Below are positions 2,699 to 62,536 of a stretch of 64,000 nucleotides of DNA, in pieces. Within the stretch, counting starts at the first letter, position 1; every line of letters begins with the position of its first letter. The notes under the pieces are model-generated. The model was not told the origin of the DNA, did no database searches, and saw only the letters and a list, made by a program, of their open reading frames with translations. This DNA is from Calothrix sp. NIES-4101 (lineage in GTDB: Bacteria; Cyanobacteriota; Cyanobacteriia; Cyanobacteriales; Nostocaceae). The translations under genes and the position numbers were made by a program. Location of the stretch: NCBI GenBank assembly GCA_004296455.1, contig AP018280.1, positions 2,480,001-2,544,000 on the forward strand, read 5' to 3'.

Positions 2699-3346
2699 CT
2701 AATCTTCAGGTGCTTCAGATTGAAACTTGTTGAGCTGACGTAAAGCGTAGTATGCAACTGCTAAACTGACTCTTGCTTGCTCGATTTCTGATAAATTGTT
2801 CCATTCGTGTTCGCCAACTTTGTTCAGCGCAGACTCAAGGCTTTGTGCTTCACCATTTCGCATCGCATAAGAATATGGACGCGCTAAAACTAATAAGTCA
2901 TCAGTGCCCAAGTTTGGCAATACCGCTTTTGCACACAATACCAGTTGCTCTCCCATTGATTGTGTAGGGTTGAATATTTCCGCCGCTTTTTCAGCTATCT
3001 TCTCAATCCAATTCTGGGGAACACGAGATGTCATTACTGCTTGTACACTTTCTTTAAGGCTAGCAATAATATTTATCGTTGGATTACATTTGTAGTTTTG
3101 GGTGCTGGCAGTGTTTGACCATAGATGATCAAGTGTTTCATAAAAAGCTTGCGATCGCGTAGGTAGTTCTGCGTCAAGTAATTCACGCATTGCAAACTGC
3201 GATTCCACATGATGAAAAAAGTCTTCTGTTTCGCCCTCTGCGGGATTCCAAGGATAATTGATGTCTTCGGAATCTAGCAGTGCTTCCAGGAGTTCTAATT
3301 GAATAGGGGAAGTTTGGATATTTTCTTGATTGTTAAAATAGGTCAT
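2699..3346 (-). CDS. Unrecognised acidic 215-aa protein next to the CHAT-FHA gene
   Basis: I do not recognise this family. The protein is predicted to be soluble and largely helical, has no signal peptide or membrane helix, and is acidic (N-terminal EDINYPWNPAEGETED region, C-terminal EAPED). A conserved-looking block, PNLGTDDLLVLARPYSYAM, sits near residues 140-160. The start is set at 3346 because a perfect GGAGG lies six bases upstream of that ATG; an ATG 21 bases further out (3367) has no such site. The gene follows the CHAT-FHA gene by about 170 bp on the same strand. It may be a partner or substrate of that protease, but this is inference from position only. Confidence 0.7.
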   Translation of the reverse strand: MTYFNNQENIQTSPIQLELLEALLDSEDINYPWNPAEGETEDFFHHVESQFAMRELLDAELPTRSQAFYETLDHLWSNTASTQNYKCNPTINIIASLKESVQAVMTSRVPQNWIEKIAEKAAEIFNPTQSMGEQLVLCAKAVLPNLGTDDLLVLARPYSYAMRNGEAQSLESALNKVGEHEWNNLSEIEQARVSLAVAYYALRQLNKFQSEAPED

Positions 3347-3351
3347 TTTTG

Positions 3352-3356
3352 CCTCC
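3352..3356 (-). promoter_or_regulatory. Ribosome-binding site that fixes the start at 3346
   Basis: The minus strand reads GGAGG, five bases of consensus Shine-Dalgarno, then a short A-rich spacer and the ATG at 3346. The more distal ATG at 3367 has no comparable site. Confidence 0.7.
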
Positions 3357-3517
3357 AGGTGATTCATTTAGTAGTATTGACAGCTACAGCATCAAGTTTT
3401 GAGTTTCCGCAAAAAGAATATGATTTTGCTTAGTTTGGCATATTTTTTTGGAGTTAGTCGTTACATTTAAAAATCCAGTGAAGTCAATGGTATATCTACG
3501 GTTTTTACCACTGATTT

Positions 3518-5101
3518 TTAGCGCTCATCAATGATAAATTCCCAGATTTCATTGCGGCTACTACCGAACTTTAACTGCATCCCAGATTCCAGGGGTATTT
3601 CCTGATGATGGATTCGCTGCCAATTCCCCGCTTTAAAAATTAAAGTTCCACCGGTTGAGTCATCACGTAGAAAATAATTTAGGACTGGCGTTGAGGCGCT
3701 GAAGTTATCACGACAGATAATTTGAGCATGTTGTCTCGACACTGATAAATCAGGAATTACAATATGATTATCTGTAGTACGACCAATACGGGTAATCGGA
3801 TTTTGTAATAAAGAAATTTTATCTTCACCATTAAGTAATCGCAGGCAAGCGCTGGGAATTTTGGTATATTCCGGTAGCGATGTGGGTAGTTCGGTGATAC
3901 TTTCATCCAAACTACGAAGAATTTGCCCATCAAATTGGGGATGCATATACAGCACAGGCAAAGTCCAAGATGGATAATTAAATCCGAACTTAGTTAGTAA
4001 TTTTTGTCTGGCTTCGGCGACAGCTTCATCAATGGCTTTGCGCGATCGCAAGGCTTCAGAAAATGCTTGAATAAAACTTAGACTTTCGCGATCGGCAATT
4101 TCGTCACGCATTCCTAATACAGCCGGAACTCCATGTCGAATCAAAACCTCAGCTAAACTGCTATAGGGTATTGATTGATGATTTACTGATGCTGGTTGTG
4201 CTCCCCAACAGGAATTAAATAGGGCTAGTTTCACTCCAGTTCGAGTTAATACTTGGGCAAGTTCAATCCCATTCAGCCTTGCTTCGGGATGTAAGTTTAA
4301 AATACCACCATCAGGATGTCGCAATCCATGTCCAGCATAGAAAAATACATTGTAGGATTGGGTTTCTAAGGCGGCGATTAATTCTTCTGGTGTGGGTTGA
4401 ATCAGAGTAGTCACCATACAGGGAGCATATCCACGCGCACTGCTAGCAACTGCTACTCCCTGAGTTAGAGTTTCTCTTAATACTTCTGCTTCTTCCCTGA
4501 GTTTCAGGTTCTCATCTTCACCTAATACAAGTAAAATGTTCAATCCAGGGTCTTTGCGGAAATCTGGAAGGGGTTCCACATCGCTGGTAGTGCGACTAAA
4601 GATGACATTTTGACTCAGAGAAATTACGGGCTGACCAGGGCGTTGCATAATTTCCCAGGGGACAGCGACTAAATAGGGGTCACGTAATTCCAAACGTAAG
4701 CGGAGACTTTTACCTAATGCTGTCGCCGCACCCCGATTATGTTCCAAACTATTCAGAATTGGCCCCTCAAAAACCCATTGCCATAAACTATTACCAAAAT
4801 ATTGCATTAACCGACTAGCGTAGTTAATCGGCTGTCCTGAAGTTGACGCAGGTAATTCAATTGTCATGACATTGACTGGCTGGGATGCAGCCTCTTCTTC
4901 GGAAGTATGGGCAGATATATCCAGGTTGCTATGTCCTGCAAACAATTGCTGCCACTCTCGCCAAACTTGTGTTAAAGCTGGTGTCCAGACACAATCATGA
5001 ATAACGCGACCACTGGGATAGGGAGCTTCCACAACCACAATCGCAAAATTGTTGGTGCCAGCGTGGACAAGACGGGCGATCGCCAGGTTTAAGGATGGCA
5101 T
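3518..5101 (-). CDS. CHAT caspase-like protease with C-terminal FHA domain
   Basis: This 527-residue protein is probably a cytoplasmic cysteine protease controlled by phosphorylation. Residues of about 180-390 form a CHAT domain (clan CD, caspase-like). It has the catalytic histidine in FFYAGHG (H258) and the catalytic cysteine in LALFNSCWG (C298), so both catalytic residues are present. Residues of about 420-525 form an FHA domain, with the phosphothreonine-binding core TRIGRTTDNHIVIP, then SVSRQHAQI. No signal peptide or membrane segment is visible. The next gene upstream encodes a PP2C phosphatase, which could oppose the phosphorylation that the FHA domain reads. No kinase gene is in the window. 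The domain calls are firm; the substrate is unknown. Confidence 0.9.
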   Translation of the reverse strand: MPSLNLAIARLVHAGTNNFAIVVVEAPYPSGRVIHDCVWTPALTQVWREWQQLFAGHSNLDISAHTSEEEAASQPVNVMTIELPASTSGQPINYASRLMQYFGNSLWQWVFEGPILNSLEHNRGAATALGKSLRLRLELRDPYLVAVPWEIMQRPGQPVISLSQNVIFSRTTSDVEPLPDFRKDPGLNILLVLGEDENLKLREEAEVLRETLTQGVAVASSARGYAPCMVTTLIQPTPEELIAALETQSYNVFFYAGHGLRHPDGGILNLHPEARLNGIELAQVLTRTGVKLALFNSCWGAQPASVNHQSIPYSSLAEVLIRHGVPAVLGMRDEIADRESLSFIQAFSEALRSRKAIDEAVAEARQKLLTKFGFNYPSWTLPVLYMHPQFDGQILRSLDESITELPTSLPEYTKIPSACLRLLNGEDKISLLQNPITRIGRTTDNHIVIPDLSVSRQHAQIICRDNFSASTPVLNYFLRDDSTGGTLIFKAGNWQRIHHQEIPLESGMQLKFGSSRNEIWEFIIDER

Positions 5102-5545
5102 GGATTCATTAAACTTAAAGGTTCAAGCAAGTTATTTCAAAGAACTATTTTAAATGGCAAACCTAAATGGCAAACCTGTTTGCAAAACACTAATTTTGTG
5201 TTTCTTCCTTGCTGGTTGAGAGTTTGAGCTTTTACCTCCTTTGCGTATTCACCAATTCATATTCACCAAGCTCATATCTGAATTATTTCAGGTTTGTTAC
5301 CAGTTTATATTAATTGATTCCGAAAGAACTCAAGAATACTTCCAGTGGTAAGATTTTGCAAAAGCTAATTCCTGACTGGCGAATAATGCGAATGAGGGGC
5401 ACCAAAAGTCTACCAATTGTAGTTTCGGGTTTTTTGGTTAACTTTACTTTTCGTTACATCACTTTTTTTGTGTCTTTCTACTGACGCAGGTATAACGGTT
5501 ATGGAAACTTGATTTTTGTAGTTACACTCTAAGGGTGAAAAGGGT
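5102..5545. other. Gene-free 444-bp spacer between the PP2C and CHAT-FHA genes
   Basis: No open frame is supported here. A short direct repeat, aaatggcaaacct, occurs twice back to back near 5153-5178, and the second copy runs into a small inverted repeat, gcaaac-ct-gtttgc. The spacer is long enough to hold a separate promoter for the CHAT-FHA gene. I cannot identify promoter boxes with confidence. Confidence 0.4.
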
Positions 5546-7936
5546 TCAATTATTTCGACTAGGAGGATTGGAACTTCTCCTGGGAGTAACAGTATTGGAG
5601 GGATTTGCTGGAGAAATATTGGCATTTGGAGATGTATCGACTGCTGGGGAATCATCTTCAGTCGCATCCGCACAAGGATTTGCGCCTGCTGCGGGTTTGC
5701 TGACGGAGGAGCCACTGATTTTGATTTGCGAGGCTTGAATCCAGATTTTCTCTTTTGGTTTAATTGTTTCTACTGGTAATGGTCCGAGAGTTCCTGAATT
5801 GACAGAACAAACTAGTACCTCGATGCTGTCACTTTGGATTGTGCCTTCGGGAATTGCTGCGGATGTATTGAGAACTTTGAGAATTGTGCCTTCCGGAATT
5901 ACACCACTCTGGGTAAAGGGTGAGGGAGTTTGGCTAAATGCGATCGCAGTTTTGACACTAATTAATGAACCTACCAAAGAATCTGTTTGTGCTTGTTGTG
6001 TTTGCTTTTCAGCGTTTGATAAAATTGGCGGATTCGGTAAATTTGTTGGTGTGACAACGGGTTGGGTTGGGAATGGAATTTTGAATGGTGAATTCTGCGA
6101 TAGTAAATAGCCCATAAATCCAGCTAATGCCAGAAAAATTGGTAATACGATCAGGTGTAAGGGAAATTTCTGATTTTTTGCCGGGGCTGTATCAGGCATT
6201 ACTTGGGTTTTCACCCTGGAAGAGTTGAACTGGCTACTGGGAGTCTCTTTTGTCGGTAAATCATTAGTATTTGACAGGTATAAATCTGATATTTTCGGTG
6301 TCATGATCGATTCTGGTTCTGTATATCTGATTTGATAATGAACCAGGGCAATAGTGACGTTATCGTGGCCATTTTGGGTGTTGGCAATATCGATTAATCT
6401 ATCTGCGACAATGCTCATATCAACACCATGAGTAAAATCGTTGTCGAGAATTGGTAAAATTTCGCTCTCCCAATATTGCTCAACACGATCAAAATCGCTC
6501 AAGCCATCTGAACACAACAAAAATACACAGTCTTCATCAAGTATAAATCTCTGGGCGGTGGGGTGTAATGAGTTACTGCTACCCATTCCCAAGGCTTGGA
6601 CTAGGGAACCACTCGCTCCTTGGTTAATGGCATCACGGTAAACGGCATAGCCTAAGCGAACTTCTCGTGAGGCAACATCATCATCTAGGGTAACTTGATA
6701 GCAACCTTGACGGGTAATCAGGTAAGCACGACTATCGCCAACATGGGTGATGTACATTTCGTGGGCAATTGGTAGCGCCATCACTAGGGTTGTCCCCATG
6801 CGCTGTCGTCCTTGTCTACCCTCTGTATCGTTTCGCTGGCTGATTTTTTCGTTGGCGACGGCGGCGGCTTGTTCCAAGTCTGCCAGTAAAATTGTCGGAT
6901 CGATGCGATCGCGTGGTTCTCTGGCTAGTAAATTAACCTGTTGCTGAATCACTTCGATCGCAATATTTGAGGCGACATTCCCTCCCTCGTGTCCACCGAT
7001 ACCATCGCAAACAATTGCCATGGCTGTCGGTTGGGGAGGTTTACTTACCTTGCTACCACTGGTGGGATAACAGGCATCTTCGTTGCGTTGGCGACTTGGC
7101 CCTGTATCAGTCTTTGTAACAATTTTGACTGATGAGTTAAAAATTGCGGCGCTACTATTTTCGGCACGTCCAACTTCAATTAATCCTTGGTCTAAAATTG
7201 CGACTAATTGTTCGCCGGAACGGATTTCGCTGTTGATGAGTGAGTCACAAACTTGAGTCAGAAATTCTGCGATCGCATTTTTACTTTTCTGGAGTAAATG
7301 GGTACGCCAAAATTCTCCTAAATCGGCTAAACTCAGTTTTTGATCACCATCATGGTGTAATTCTAATAATTTAACTACAGAGCCTTCTGGTCGAATTAAT
7401 GAGGTTTTTAACAAACTGGACGCGACACCCTCACTTGCCAGAGGTTGCCAGAGATTAGCGATTTGCCATAACCAGTTGAGTTGGCGCATCGATGTGGCTT
7501 CACCCCAAACCAAATCAATTGATTTGTATAGTTGCACTTCGGTAACTGATTCGGCGTTAGTCCACAGTGGGGGTTTCTCCAATAGCAAAATTTCTTGTTG
7601 ATTTCCTTCACCTGCGGGGATAACTCCATACACTTGAGGAACATGGAGTCGATAGGGAAATAAACGTAAATAAGATTTTAACTTATGTAAATTTTCCATT
7701 TCCGGCACTACAGGAATAAGTCCGGGTCTGGTATCGAAAAGAACAGACTGACTAATGATTAAATAGCGATCGGCTAAAATATTCCCAGCAATGCCTAAAT
7801 TTTTTCCTTCTGCCACTGCCCATAAATAACGTTTCGGCAACGGCGTTCGACACTGCTGACAAAAATGATGATTAAGCGGATTGGCTGTCTGACAAGCTTC
7901 ATTGGGACAGTTGAGCATTGCCGCGTCTTTTTCCAT
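5546..7936 (-). CDS. Zinc-ribbon/PP2C serine-threonine phosphatase, membrane-anchored
   Basis: This 796-residue protein starts with a zinc-ribbon motif (C10, C15, C26, C29). Next comes a region of about 230 residues without a clear family, loosely resembling degenerate kinase-linked regions. The PP2C (PPM) phosphatase domain spans about 272-535. Its metal-binding motifs are intact: RNEDA (D287), CDGIGGHEGG (D311), HVGDSRAYL, CSDGLSD (D477) and GHDNVT (D525). One membrane helix follows at about 592-612, then about 180 mostly Pro/Ser/Thr-rich residues. The phosphatase domain is expected in the cytoplasm, with the C-terminal tail outside. The downstream CHAT-FHA gene suggests a phosphorylation-controlled module. 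The family is certain; the target is inferred. Confidence 0.9.
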   Translation of the reverse strand: MEKDAAMLNCPNEACQTANPLNHHFCQQCRTPLPKRYLWAVAEGKNLGIAGNILADRYLIISQSVLFDTRPGLIPVVPEMENLHKLKSYLRLFPYRLHVPQVYGVIPAGEGNQQEILLLEKPPLWTNAESVTEVQLYKSIDLVWGEATSMRQLNWLWQIANLWQPLASEGVASSLLKTSLIRPEGSVVKLLELHHDGDQKLSLADLGEFWRTHLLQKSKNAIAEFLTQVCDSLINSEIRSGEQLVAILDQGLIEVGRAENSSAAIFNSSVKIVTKTDTGPSRQRNEDACYPTSGSKVSKPPQPTAMAIVCDGIGGHEGGNVASNIAIEVIQQQVNLLAREPRDRIDPTILLADLEQAAAVANEKISQRNDTEGRQGRQRMGTTLVMALPIAHEMYITHVGDSRAYLITRQGCYQVTLDDDVASREVRLGYAVYRDAINQGASGSLVQALGMGSSNSLHPTAQRFILDEDCVFLLCSDGLSDFDRVEQYWESEILPILDNDFTHGVDMSIVADRLIDIANTQNGHDNVTIALVHYQIRYTEPESIMTPKISDLYLSNTNDLPTKETPSSQFNSSRVKTQVMPDTAPAKNQKFPLHLIVLPIFLALAGFMGYLLSQNSPFKIPFPTQPVVTPTNLPNPPILSNAEKQTQQAQTDSLVGSLISVKTAIAFSQTPSPFTQSGVIPEGTILKVLNTSAAIPEGTIQSDSIEVLVCSVNSGTLGPLPVETIKPKEKIWIQASQIKISGSSVSKPAAGANPCADATEDDSPAVDTSPNANISPANPSNTVTPRRSSNPPSRNN

Positions 7937-9028: not shown

Positions 9029-9379
9029 TCACTCAGCTTCAACACGGGGAAGCCCCATACTGTAATTAGCCACGCGAGCGTTGAGATTATAGCTAATTTC
9101 AGCATTTTGCAGAAGCGATCGCACAAAATGTTCCAAGTCGGAACCAATACGGCGCAAGTTGTAGTCAGTTAAATCAGCACCGCTCGAAGCTTCAACTAAG
9201 TCATCAAACTTACGATAAACCTTTTGCAGTGCATCTTCATTCCAAATAAACTCATTATCAGGGTCAATATCCAACGTTAAAACCCGATCATGGGGAACTA
9301 ATTCGCCATCTTTGTCTAATTCCGCCGCGAAAATGCGGATGTGGCGGGTTGTAGACTTAAGTAGCATCGCATTGTCCAT
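9029..9379 (-). CDS. ndhM: NAD(P)H-quinone oxidoreductase subunit M
   Basis: NdhM is a subunit of the cyanobacterial and chloroplast NDH-1 complex on the thylakoid membrane, which serves cyclic electron flow and respiration. It is recognised by family-typical stretches: [35 protein letters not shown], and [19 protein letters not shown]. The protein is soluble, without a membrane helix, as is typical of this peripheral subunit. I place the start at 9379 (MDNAMLLKS, 116 residues), which matches the usual family length. The frame remains open upstream to another ATG at 9454, but that extension does not look like NdhM. No clear ribosome-binding site decides the start. Confidence 0.93.
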
Positions 9380-10333
9380 AATTTGAAGATGTTCAGGATA
9401 GAGGTTTCTCACCAACATTGTAGACTTTATCCCGCAGTCCCAATACCCATGCATTTGTCAATGGATGGTATAGGAGAGTGAATTAATCACTTAACTTTTA
9501 ATTAAAAATCAGCTTTGCTGGTGCTTAAAGTAATATCCTCAATTTTCACATACTGAAGCACAGACTCAGAAGCCAGAGATAGTTATATAGAGATAGACAA
9601 ATATAGATGTATCTATAAAGCGTACTTTTTCAGATTTGTTCCAGTACCTGTTGATTTATCCTTGTCCATTGTCTTGATTTCTTGACCTTTTTTTGGGGAA
9701 CTACAAATTTAGTGTCATAGTCAGCTTGATCTAGCTAAAACATGCTTTCCCAATTTCTCGTTCCTATTTCTCTTGACGCAAAAAACTAACAATTATTTTC
9801 CTGGAAATATTTTATCTTCATCAATAGGAATTGTTTCACAGCAAAAATCCCCTAATTTCTTTACCCAATAATGACGCTTTTGGACTGAAATGAATAAATC
9901 ATACATCTAGTATTTTTACGTAAAAACGTTGTATTAGGCTCCAGTATGAGGATATTAACAGTAATTTCAGCGTTATTACTTACGTATAAATACTGCGTAT
10001 TTAGTAAAAACAAAAACTGTTGTTGACGTTAATATCAAGTTGATGTAAAAACCTTTAAAAAGCACTAGCAACTTCTTACAGAATCTTTATCGTATGGAAT
10101 CTTAAAAATTGAATAATAGTTATGGTTTACCTAAATGGGGCATAGGGTCAAAACTCAGACTAAATTTGCTTTAGCTAGAAGAAACACACAGGAGAGAAAG
10201 ATGAGATATAACTTAATTTGACTGCAAGGGATTATTGATTCAAACTAGAGGGATTTAAAAAAGTATTAAGAATTTTGGCTTGAAACATAGCTCCTCACTC
10301 CGAAGACTACCAACTGAAGGAATCCTAGAAATT
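9380..10333. other. 954-bp divergent intergenic region between ndhM and the heterocyst-type regulator
   Basis: Both flanking genes read outwards, so this region should hold both promoters. It is AT-rich with scattered TACGT-type words (9917-9990) but no gene. I see no binding site of a named regulator that I would defend. Confidence 0.4.
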
Positions 10334-60547: not shown

Positions 60548-62536
60548 TTAATTATTAGCTAAATTTGGCTTAACTTCATCACTTGCTAATAATTGTCTTA
60601 ATACTCTGACAAGAGTCTTTTGTAACAATTGTTCGGTAATTTGCTGACCCAATCTCTGCACCCCAGGATTAAACAATATTTGTGTAATTTGGGGAACTAA
60701 TTGATTGACATCAAAACCCCGTGTTTGTTGGAGAATTTGCACAACATTCTGAATATGTTCTAATGTTTCTTGCTGTTCTAGATTGGCTGCGGCTGTTTCC
60801 TTAACGGCGGTAATTCCTACTTGTTCACGCAATAAATAAGTAAAGTTGTGTAAGATATTTTTCCGCAATCCATCGACACTTTTTAATAACTCATCAACCA
60901 ACTTTTCACGAATATACTCACCGCGTTCTGATGACAGAAAATCAACTGCTTGATTCAAGACTAAATCGAAATCATACTCTTCATTATTTCGAGCATTTTT
61001 GAGGAGGTTTTCTAGGCGATTCCAGCGAAAACTTCCCTCTTTAAATAATAAATCTCGTAATGATGTTCTTAACTGCGGTGCCGGGTCGGTTAATAGCCGT
61101 TTGGCAACATAGGGATAGGCTTCACTCAAGACTTTGAAGTCAGGATCGATGTAAATTGCAATACCTTCCAGTGTCACCAAAGAGCGAATAATCAACGCAT
61201 AGTAGGGAGGTACGCGGAAAGGATACTCGTACATCAACTCCGAGAGGTCGTCAGTTATACTCTTAATGTTGAAATCGGCGACGCTAGCACCTTGGGCATT
61301 GGCGAAGACTTTCCCAAACGCGGGGATAATTGGTGTAAGGTCAGTATCGGGTGAGAGAAAATCTAGTTTGACATAATCGTTTGCTAAACCTTCAAAATCA
61401 CGGTTGACGACATGAACGATCGCCTCAATTAAACCATAACGCTGAGGTGGTTGAACTTGGCTCATCATCCCAAAGTCAAGATATGCTAACTTTCCATCTG
61501 GGGTAGCGAGTAAGTTGCCTGGATGGGGGTCTGCGTGGAAAAATCCATGTTCGAGTAACTGCCGCAAGGAGCACTGCACGCCCACCTCAATCAAATAACG
61601 AGCGTCGATGCCTTCTTCTGCTAATTCTTGTGTTTGTGTGAGTTTTTTACCGTTAATCCATTCCATCGTGAGCACACGACGGTTTGTATATTCCCAGTAT
61701 ATTTTCGGTACATATATGTCTTTCATATGACCGTAAAGCTGGAAGAATTTTTCGGCGTTTTCACCTTCATGGATGTAATCCATTTCTTCAAAAATGCGAT
61801 CGCCTAATTCGTCCAAGATACCAGCTAAGTCGCTACGCACTCTTTTGACTTTTTGTTTCGCCCACACAGCTAATTTGCGAAGAATATATAAGTCAATAGT
61901 GATGGCTTCGCGCAAGTCGGGACGCTGAATTTTAATGGCGACTTCTTCACCGCTAAATAATTTACCTTTGTAAACCTGTCCTAAGGATGCTGCGGCAATG
62001 GGATGGGGCGAAATCTCAGCATAGATTTCTTCGGGTGTTTGTCCCAGTTCTTCTTCGATAAATTTATAGGCAATTTCATTGGGAAATGCGGGTAATTTAT
62101 CTTGTAACTGGGTTAATTCTTCTAAAAATACGGAGGGGACTAAATCTGGTCTTGTAGATAATGCCTGACCGATTTTAATGTATGCTGGCCCCAATTTAGT
62201 CAGTAATTCTCGAAATTGGACGGCGCGACGACGGTCATTTTTAACCTTGACACCTCGTTTACCGTCAAACCAGACCCCAAAGGCAAAGCTGAGTGTCGGT
62301 GCTAAAACTTTCAAAATCCGACTAAATACCTTTAAAGGTCGAGATTGATAATAGAATGCGATCGCATCCGCGTCATACTTTAATTCAAATTCTAAACTCT
62401 TGCCAGGATTTACTACAGGGGATGGCAAGTTTGACACCTCCCCTCTCAAAGCCAGCAAACTCACCTCCGTTAGTTGGCTTGGGTGACTGTCTTTTTCTAG
62501 CACTTGGGAAGTAGGAGTCATTGTTTTCGCATTCAT
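60548..62536 (-). CDS. ABC1/UbiB-family atypical kinase
   Basis: The 662-residue protein belongs to the ABC1 (ADCK, UbiB, AarF) atypical kinase-like family. In cyanobacteria and chloroplasts these affect quinone and prenyl-lipid metabolism. The family-specific KxGQ motif is in LGPAYIKIGQALSTRPD. The alanine-rich loop is AAASLGQVYKGKL, with the kinase lysine in EEVAIKIQRP. The catalytic loop is HGFFHADPHPGNLLATPDGK, and the metal-binding LAYLDFGMMSQVQ. Residues of about 495-660 form an alpha-helical C-terminal region without clear homology. It stands alone, ends at a terminator, and has its ATG at 62536. The family is secure; the substrate is unproven. Confidence 0.92.
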   Translation of the reverse strand: MNAKTMTPTSQVLEKDSHPSQLTEVSLLALRGEVSNLPSPVVNPGKSLEFELKYDADAIAFYYQSRPLKVFSRILKVLAPTLSFAFGVWFDGKRGVKVKNDRRRAVQFRELLTKLGPAYIKIGQALSTRPDLVPSVFLEELTQLQDKLPAFPNEIAYKFIEEELGQTPEEIYAEISPHPIAAASLGQVYKGKLFSGEEVAIKIQRPDLREAITIDLYILRKLAVWAKQKVKRVRSDLAGILDELGDRIFEEMDYIHEGENAEKFFQLYGHMKDIYVPKIYWEYTNRRVLTMEWINGKKLTQTQELAEEGIDARYLIEVGVQCSLRQLLEHGFFHADPHPGNLLATPDGKLAYLDFGMMSQVQPPQRYGLIEAIVHVVNRDFEGLANDYVKLDFLSPDTDLTPIIPAFGKVFANAQGASVADFNIKSITDDLSELMYEYPFRVPPYYALIIRSLVTLEGIAIYIDPDFKVLSEAYPYVAKRLLTDPAPQLRTSLRDLLFKEGSFRWNRLENLLKNARNNEEYDFDLVLNQAVDFLSSERGEYIREKLVDELLKSVDGLRKNILHNFTYLLREQVGITAVKETAAANLEQQETLEHIQNVVQILQQTRGFDVNQLVPQITQILFNPGVQRLGQQITEQLLQKTLVRVLRQLLASDEVKPNLANN

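Follow-up and report, generated by a model that had tools for sequence, protein, structure and literature searches.

What does a caspase-like protease with a phosphothreonine-reading domain do beside a phosphatase gene and the gene of a small protein, and which of its neighbours does it work with? The locus that raises this question lies in a stretch of 64,000 nucleotides (the window: positions 2,480,001 to 2,544,000 of contig AP018280.1, forward strand, assembly GCA_004296455.1) from the 7.6 Mb genome of the cyanobacterium Calothrix sp. NIES-4101, where three genes are transcribed from the minus strand in the order PP2C-type phosphatase, CHAT-FHA protease and small protein. A model that had seen the letters of this DNA (the sequence-only reading) had proposed a phospho-switched stress or immunity module. 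Here, we propose by analogy with the protease HetF and its substrate PatU3 that the CHAT-FHA protease and the small protein, a PatU-like client, probably form a second HetF/PatU-type switch in which the client would be cut after Arg170. The features are as follows (window positions; aa, amino acids).

5546..7936, minus strand: PP2C-type phosphatase, 796 aa, comprising a zinc ribbon with four Cys, a pseudokinase-like domain, the PP2C domain, a single transmembrane helix and a C-terminal tail
7838..7915, minus strand: zinc ribbon of the PP2C protein, residues 8-33 (invariant Cys; weak Pfam DZR match)
7142..7804, minus strand: predicted pseudokinase-like domain of the PP2C protein, residues 45-265 (AlphaFold2 model and Foldseek)
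6332..7129, minus strand: PP2C catalytic domain, residues 270-535 (Pfam, NCBIfam, alignment)
6098..6154, minus strand: predicted transmembrane helix of the PP2C protein, residues 595-613 (hydropathy)
3518..5101, minus strand: CHAT-FHA cysteine protease, 527 aa, sister of HetF (Pfam and tree)
3989..4798, minus strand: CHAT protease domain, residues 102-371 (PF12770)
4328-4330, minus strand: predicted catalytic His258
4208-4210, minus strand: predicted catalytic Cys298
3563..3793, minus strand: FHA domain, residues 437-513 (PF00498)
2699..3346, minus strand: PatU-like protein, 215 aa, proposed CHAT-FHA substrate (hhalign with the PatU family); a 222-aa open reading frame (ORF) starts at 3367
2858..2860, minus strand: codon of invariant Arg170 (222-aa numbering; residue 163 in the 215-aa form), after which the protease is proposed to cut (conservation, PatU alignment)

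All three genes are open and intact on the minus strand at the positions that the sequence-only reading had assigned to them, and that reading was also right about the length of the third protein: a GGAGG motif stands just 5' of the ATG at 3346, the eighth codon of the 222-aa ORF, and many aligned homologues start at the same ATG, so that the protein is taken to have 215 and not 222 aa. A scan for promoters and terminators was uninformative, giving fewer hits than shuffled sequence did. Residue numbers of the small protein nevertheless refer to the 222-aa ORF unless the 215-aa protein is named, and its family and profile are called P0001. Its two further observations on the protease, an intact His/Cys pair and an FHA domain, were confirmed as well. 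The CHAT domain (PF12770) scored 78.7 bits against a cut-off of 24 and the FHA domain (PF00498) 51.8 bits against 20.7, and His258 and Cys298 are invariant in all 39 rows of the alignment, which comprises the query and 38 of 53 extracted homologues. FHA domains contact phosphothreonine through an Arg and a Ser and usually carry an Asn before a Gly-Thr pair. In the aligned proteins Arg441 is conserved in 38, Ser455 in 37 and His458 in 38 of the 39, and at residues 482-486 (window 3644-3658, minus strand) the Asn expected before Gly-Thr is Tyr, Phe or Gly in 35/39, a replacement that may alter which phosphopeptides the domain reads. Hydropathy analysis detected no strongly hydrophobic segment in the protease. 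No paper joining a CHAT domain to an FHA domain was found in the literature collection searched, outside of which most subscription papers lie.

Comparison with the other CHAT proteins of the same genome, which holds 39 CHAT matches, pointed to HetF as the nearest relative of the protease. When the CHAT-FHA query was run against the whole genome, HetF scored 121 bits and the next protein 44, and the CHAT-FHA profile gave HetF 191 bits and the next protein 58 among 15 CHAT loci of the genome. The protease is not itself HetF: it reached 141.3 bits with the HetF family NF045509, whose equivalog cut-off is 1200, and the true HetF of this genome is a separate gene (G000:C1:5920249-5922798) with 1393 bits. 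In a tree of 32 CHAT domains, the 15 CHAT-FHA sequences formed one group (support 90/93), as did the ten HetF sequences (100/97), and both groups together were split at 100/99 from seven other CHAT rows of the host genome; these rows represent six different sequences, one gene being present twice, and seven CHAT loci of the genome whose profile match was too weak are excluded. By these sequence comparisons, CHAT-FHA is the sister of HetF.

The third gene had been described as encoding a protein of unknown family, which holds insofar as Pfam and PADLOC gave no match to it and its best NCBIfam hit (E 0.15) does not exceed chance; by profile-profile comparison, it is nonetheless a distant relative of PatU. 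A search with the P0001 profile of 291 genomes drawn from the phylum, each at least 95% complete, returned eight weak secondary matches (E 2e-6 to 7e-4), and all eight are the gene directly downstream of hetZ, i.e., patU; HetZ was recognized by NF037963 (E 9.5e-198) in locus L113 and by 65-86% identity to the L113 HetZ in the other seven. According to PMC7377430, patU directly follows hetZ and is split into patU5 and patU3 in Anabaena PCC 7120, and PatU3 binds HetZ. Direct alignment of the P0001 and PatU families with hhalign gave a probability of 92.4% (E 5.3e-7, score 54.6, 100 columns), whereas 60 column shuffles reached at most 20.4, the reversed control 20.5, and an unrelated family a probability of 0.3%. 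Moreover, the reverse plain search with PatU found a P0001 gene at E 4.5e-4, and in both families a Pro-Trp motif, mostly YPW[ND] or FPWE, precedes the shared domain. The relationship is limited to this helical domain: P0001 ends with it, while PatU continues for a C-terminal region of about 100 residues, and the small gene lies downstream of CHAT-FHA and not right after hetZ, the host having its own hetZ and patU elsewhere (L164). We therefore call the small protein PatU-like, a distant relative that lacks the PatU C-terminal region. The P0001 alignment holds 30 of 35 extracted homologues, four close relatives (L062, L063, L069, L076) and a fragment (L110) being omitted, and is also without L060, L067, L077 and L104, for which no start codon was found. 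In its structure model (pLDDT 73), the small protein consists of helices only; a fold search with this model retrieved no known fold (best E 0.78), and the three matches of the P0001 profile among solved structures, the best at E 0.0059 to a designed binder, were taken as chance.

The two genes are inherited together. Among the 291 genomes the small protein is present in 71 and CHAT-FHA in 69, with both in 68 and neither in 219; the small protein stands alone in three (G076, G185, G264) and CHAT-FHA in one draft (G292), which corresponds to a Fisher p of 1e-61 in a test that ignores kinship. Gene order was surveyed in 60 genomes of the host's family and in 40 genomes of 32 other families, with a presence threshold for CHAT-FHA of E < 1e-60, chosen because matches to HetF and to other CHAT proteins are weaker. 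Gene order in the host's family is far beyond chance: each gene was found in 59/60 genomes, and in all 59 the two are adjacent on the same strand, with gaps of 147-562 bases (median 202). Of the 40 genomes from other families, 26 have CHAT-FHA and 28 the small gene; 25 have both, and in 18 of these the two are adjacent. Over the 291 genomes, match coordinates show 36 pairs outside the host's family, of which 19 are adjacent and 17 are not: in four (G163, G204, G310, G341) more than 1 Mb of a single contig separates the genes, and in 13 the genes fall on separate contigs, so that linkage may be masked by the draft state of the assembly. The presence of both genes in these 17 genomes indicates that the pair is kept even where its genes have separated. 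Second copies of CHAT-FHA were seen in G031 (G031:C18:43131-44696) and in Calothrix sp. NIES-4105 (L066), the latter with neither a PP2C nor a PatU-like gene within the 15.6 kb examined. Ten further loci (L083, L084, L091, L094, L095, L099, L100, L102, L105, L106), six of them from Chamaesiphon, also show CHAT-FHA with neither partner in the stretch examined.

The pair is, furthermore, distinct from HetF and PatU in its history. In the 40 genomes of other families, presence was discordant in one genome for HetF and PatU and in four for CHAT-FHA and P0001, as compared to ten and nine for the crossed pairs, which argues that each protease follows its own PatU-type protein; HetF/PatU and CHAT-FHA/PatU-like have been gained and lost as separate pairs. 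For this count, C-terminal-only HetF fragments in G074 and G076 and the PatU match of G090 (E 8.6e-4) were scored absent, and the split HetF of G091 and the shortened small protein of G082 present. At the thresholds used, the CHAT-FHA pair occurs without HetF/PatU in six genomes (G065, G069, G074, G077, G084, G090), and the converse holds for G064 and, in the host's family, for G043. A role in heterocyst patterning alone is thus unlikely for the CHAT-FHA pair, given its presence in genomes without HetF/PatU (G065, G069, G077, G084, G090). In G015, a genome of 3.8 Mb on one contig, no HetF was seen beyond the CHAT-FHA match and patU is interrupted by stop codons; CHAT-FHA and the PatU-like gene are free of internal stops. 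A decayed patU together with an open CHAT-FHA pair in one genome indicates that the two pairs decay independently.

The phosphatase gene is less firmly attached. In the host's family the best PP2C match lies upstream of CHAT-FHA on the same strand in 53/59 genomes (median gap 302 bases, largest 3224); in the other six, the match sits on a separate contig of a draft assembly (five genomes) or far off on the same contig (G015). Outside the family, PP2C-like genes are present in 40/40 genomes but adjoin CHAT-FHA in only 10/26, a point against our proposal. Conservation of the three-gene order, which the sequence-only reading had named as a check and whose absence would have refuted it, is thus found for the host's family and is partial outside of it as far as PP2C is concerned. 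These data bear on the strongest rival of our own explanation, a rival that we give somewhat less than an even chance: the three genes would be neighbours by descent only, PP2C being tied to another function (e.g., ndhM), with protease and client as the unit. PP2C-like genes occur in 100/100 surveyed genomes, including those without the pair, and NdhM is present in 24 of the 29 named loci that yielded a whole PP2C; in the window the NdhM gene (PF10664, E 1.5e-52) lies upstream of PP2C at 9029-9454, minus strand. PP2C is clearly present where the pair is absent in G043, which indicates that it is not a dedicated partner. The persistence of the PP2C-CHAT order in ten of 26 genomes of other families argues against mere descent, as does the fact that an FHA domain beside a Ser/Thr phosphatase and a pseudokinase would be a plausible functional set. 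This explanation is compatible with our proposal for the protease and its client.

The PP2C protein itself is built of several domains. Its catalytic part matched PF13672 (PP2C_2, 43.5 bits against 24) and PF00481 (41.6 against 20.3), and D287, D311, D477 and D525, which belong to the metal-binding Asp motifs of PP2C enzymes, are invariant in the 22 aligned rows (21 of 29 extracted homologues were used); with 250.3 bits against a cut-off of 374 it falls short of PRK14559 (NF011149). The sequence-only reading had called it membrane-anchored, and the single strongly hydrophobic stretch, residues 595-613 (hydropathy 2.24 over 19 residues), supports this. At the N-terminus, the four Cys of a zinc ribbon (C10, C15, C26, C29) are invariant in 22/22, with a weak match to Pfam DZR (E 0.046). 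An AlphaFold2 model of residues 1-270 (pLDDT 89) gave kinase folds, including PDGFRA, as its first five Foldseek matches (E 1e-5 to 1.5e-3), the best being PknG (4y0x; E 1e-5, TM-score 0.50) and the fifth Rv3910/MviN (3uqc; E 1.5e-3), with PAN3 pseudokinases lower. The domain has no Pfam Pkinase match, and a profile of the N-terminal part of the PP2C protein found three matches among solved structures (best E 0.16), none of them a kinase; judged from the modelled fold, it would be a pseudokinase. The earlier remark that no kinase gene is visible in the window consequently stands for active kinases and needs amending for the kinase-like fold predicted inside the PP2C protein. A search of 54 named loci, 36 of them at least 15 kb long, with two kinase queries gave a single match (L090, 27% identity, E 9e-13); a conserved Ser/Thr kinase gene beside the triad, of the kind that this reading had suggested looking for, was thus not found in them. 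The host genome has 58 stretches that exceed the PF00069 cut-off, and the closest of these lies about 26 kb before the window. A weak PF00069 match at window 61439-61801, UbiB/ABC1-like by its sequence, was rejected as a partner.

If the small protein is a PatU-like client, a site comparable to that cut in PatU3 would be expected in it. In PatU3, HetF reportedly cuts after Arg117 (Xing et al. 2022). Residue 117 is indeed Arg in the split PatU3 of 258 aa (L117), its column contains 25 R and one K among 28 PatU proteins, and the profile alignment pairs this Arg with Arg170 of the small protein. Arg170 is kept in all 31 aligned small proteins and in 27/27 further ones from CHAT-FHA genomes, including 16 that are non-adjacent to CHAT-FHA in the examined stretch and one very diverged protein (G268). 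Since the G271 protein is identical to the aligned row L082, these are 57 distinct proteins (57/57). Where no CHAT-FHA was found, Arg170 is Gln in G083 and Asp in G264, and the protein of G082 is cut off before the site. The comparison of 58/58 with protease and 2/4 without gives p 0.003 with no correction for kinship, a value hardly changed by counting 57/57. These numbers derive from 53 of 54 loci that gave a P0001 sequence (L241 gave none): 27 with CHAT-FHA, five without and 21 whose status is unassigned and which were not counted. Among the latter, G440 and G471, from the genus of G264, have Asp at Arg170; G592 keeps Arg170 and not Arg163; G412, with CHAT-FHA adjacent, keeps both; G599 is cut by a contig end, and G501, G505 and G550 are shortened; the others, G416 and G450 aside, keep both Arg residues.

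Several observations weigh against cleavage at this site or against the kinship on which it is modelled. The reported position of the PatU3 cut did not appear in the passages of other papers that were consulted. The two other readable genomes without a detected CHAT-FHA, G076 and G185, keep Arg170, and since the four assemblies are drafts in 150-460 contigs, the protease could have escaped detection; in G076 sequence corresponding to the final 53 residues at the FHA end is still present just upstream of the small gene, on account of which the loss of CHAT-FHA there looks recent. Loss of the Arg in G083 and G264 may stem from general decay. In G416 (L236) and G450 (L238), of one genus, the client is broken before Arg170 despite CHAT-FHA sequence upstream; the CHAT-FHA match of G416 shifts frame, and G450 shows a CHAT-FHA piece only and a client interrupted by about 900 bases, possibly a joint decay of the pair. 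Arg163 is as invariant as Arg170 in the aligned small proteins, the region of both may be structural, and in the model, of moderate confidence, Arg170 ends helix 155-171 before a short loop and does not lie mid-loop. Finally, the homology with PatU spans only 100 columns, and the tree program warned that the split of HetF and CHAT-FHA from other CHAT domains joins long branches.

The next alternative we judge unlikely: the small protein would be an adaptor, inhibitor or activator of CHAT-FHA, the PatU fold would serve to dock HetF-type proteases, and another protein would be the true substrate. The pairing and homology data fit a regulator equally well, and two neighbouring invariant Arg residues are what a binding surface might show. 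On the other hand, only the Arg that pairs with the reported cut site is shared with PatU (R or K in 26/28), whereas the PatU position four residues before it is R in only 11/28. Moreover, PatU3, the sole PatU-type protein that has been studied, is reported to be a HetF substrate in a review (PMC12288457, citing Xing et al. 2022).

Very improbable is the stress or immunity module of the sequence-only reading, in which FHA and PP2C would gate a self-killing protease, since the conserved Arg441 and Ser455 and the upstream PP2C gene of the host's family, which fit it, stand against a pair that is near-universal in that family, a client without plasmid match, the lack of any defence family, a kinase gene beside just one of 54 named loci, and a nearest CHAT relative that is a division and development protease. 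In PADLOC-DB 2.0, no protein of the locus significantly matched a known anti-phage defence system: the best match, to SAVED_CHAT, spanned 143 CHAT-domain residues at E 0.0014, PP2C reached 0.036 and the small protein had none. The plasmid search gave no match to the small protein, and none of the plasmid and phage records covers 80% of CHAT-FHA. The closest relatives instead point to developmental proteolysis of the HetF/PatU type.

Following the proposal of a second HetF/PatU-type switch, CHAT-FHA, as a caspase-like cysteine protease from the HetF stem, would have the 215-aa protein as its own PatU-like client and would cut it after Arg170, where the sixth predicted helix ends before a short loop, as HetF is reported to do with PatU3, and the cleavage would remove a repressor-like protein. 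The FHA domain may recruit or tether the protease to a protein carrying phosphothreonine and so decide where or when it acts, and the neighbouring membrane PP2C could set the phosphorylation state; we regard this phospho part as tentative. Our guess that the FHA domain of the protease reads the pseudokinase of PP2C follows the precedent of MviN, where FhaA is drawn by its FHA domain to the phosphorylated tail of the pseudokinase domain (PMC12599244). The analogy suggests division or cell fate as the controlled process. Taken to its widest form, HetF/PatU3 would be one of two parallel ancient pairs, and the CHAT-FHA pair, phosphothreonine-addressed, reset by PP2C and with the PP2C pseudokinase as FHA target, would act, in processes other than heterocyst patterning, as a phospho-gated caspase-like switch that governs division or cell fate, which we consider doubtful as a whole.

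Further along the window, on the minus strand, a free-standing 76-aa peptidoglycan-binding protein (PF01471, E 1e-19) is encoded at 1818-2048, which had no match among the 54 named loci, and positions 1-1522 hold the 5' part of a gene that is cut by the window edge and in which, by eye, a unit of about 290 bases is repeated several times.

Few bacterial CHAT proteases have a known substrate. Here, a named protease, a named candidate substrate and a named bond are offered in cyanobacteria that are easily grown. If the proposal is true, protease and client have evolved as a pair more than once, an unknown-family protein conserved in many cyanobacteria is explained, and a caspase-like protease is linked to Ser/Thr phosphorylation.

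Among known systems, PrpJ (all1731) of Anabaena PCC 7120 is described as a plasma-membrane PP2C (PMC6161253) and thus resembles the phosphatase of this locus as a membrane PP2C of a heterocystous cyanobacterium. MviN (Rv3910) and FhaA likewise combine a pseudokinase of similar fold (3uqc) with an FHA protein; here, as known from sequence and model, the pseudokinase-like domain is fused to PP2C and the FHA domain to the protease. PknG resembles the phosphatase in that a zinc-binding N-terminus is followed by a kinase fold (4y0x being the best fold match), and differs in that the PP2C protein has neither a Pfam Pkinase match nor catalytic kinase residues recognisable in the alignment and continues into a PP2C domain. 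The closest parallel is HetF (NF045509; alr3546 in Anabaena sp. PCC 7120) with PatU3, which shares a sister CHAT domain with the same His/Cys pair, a PatU-family partner, an Arg at the aligned site and co-inheritance of protease and partner. HetF is longer and has transmembrane and TPR regions (PMC8406250), whereas CHAT-FHA has an FHA domain. The CHAT-FHA client, in turn, lacks the C-terminal part of PatU and adjoins the protease instead of hetZ.

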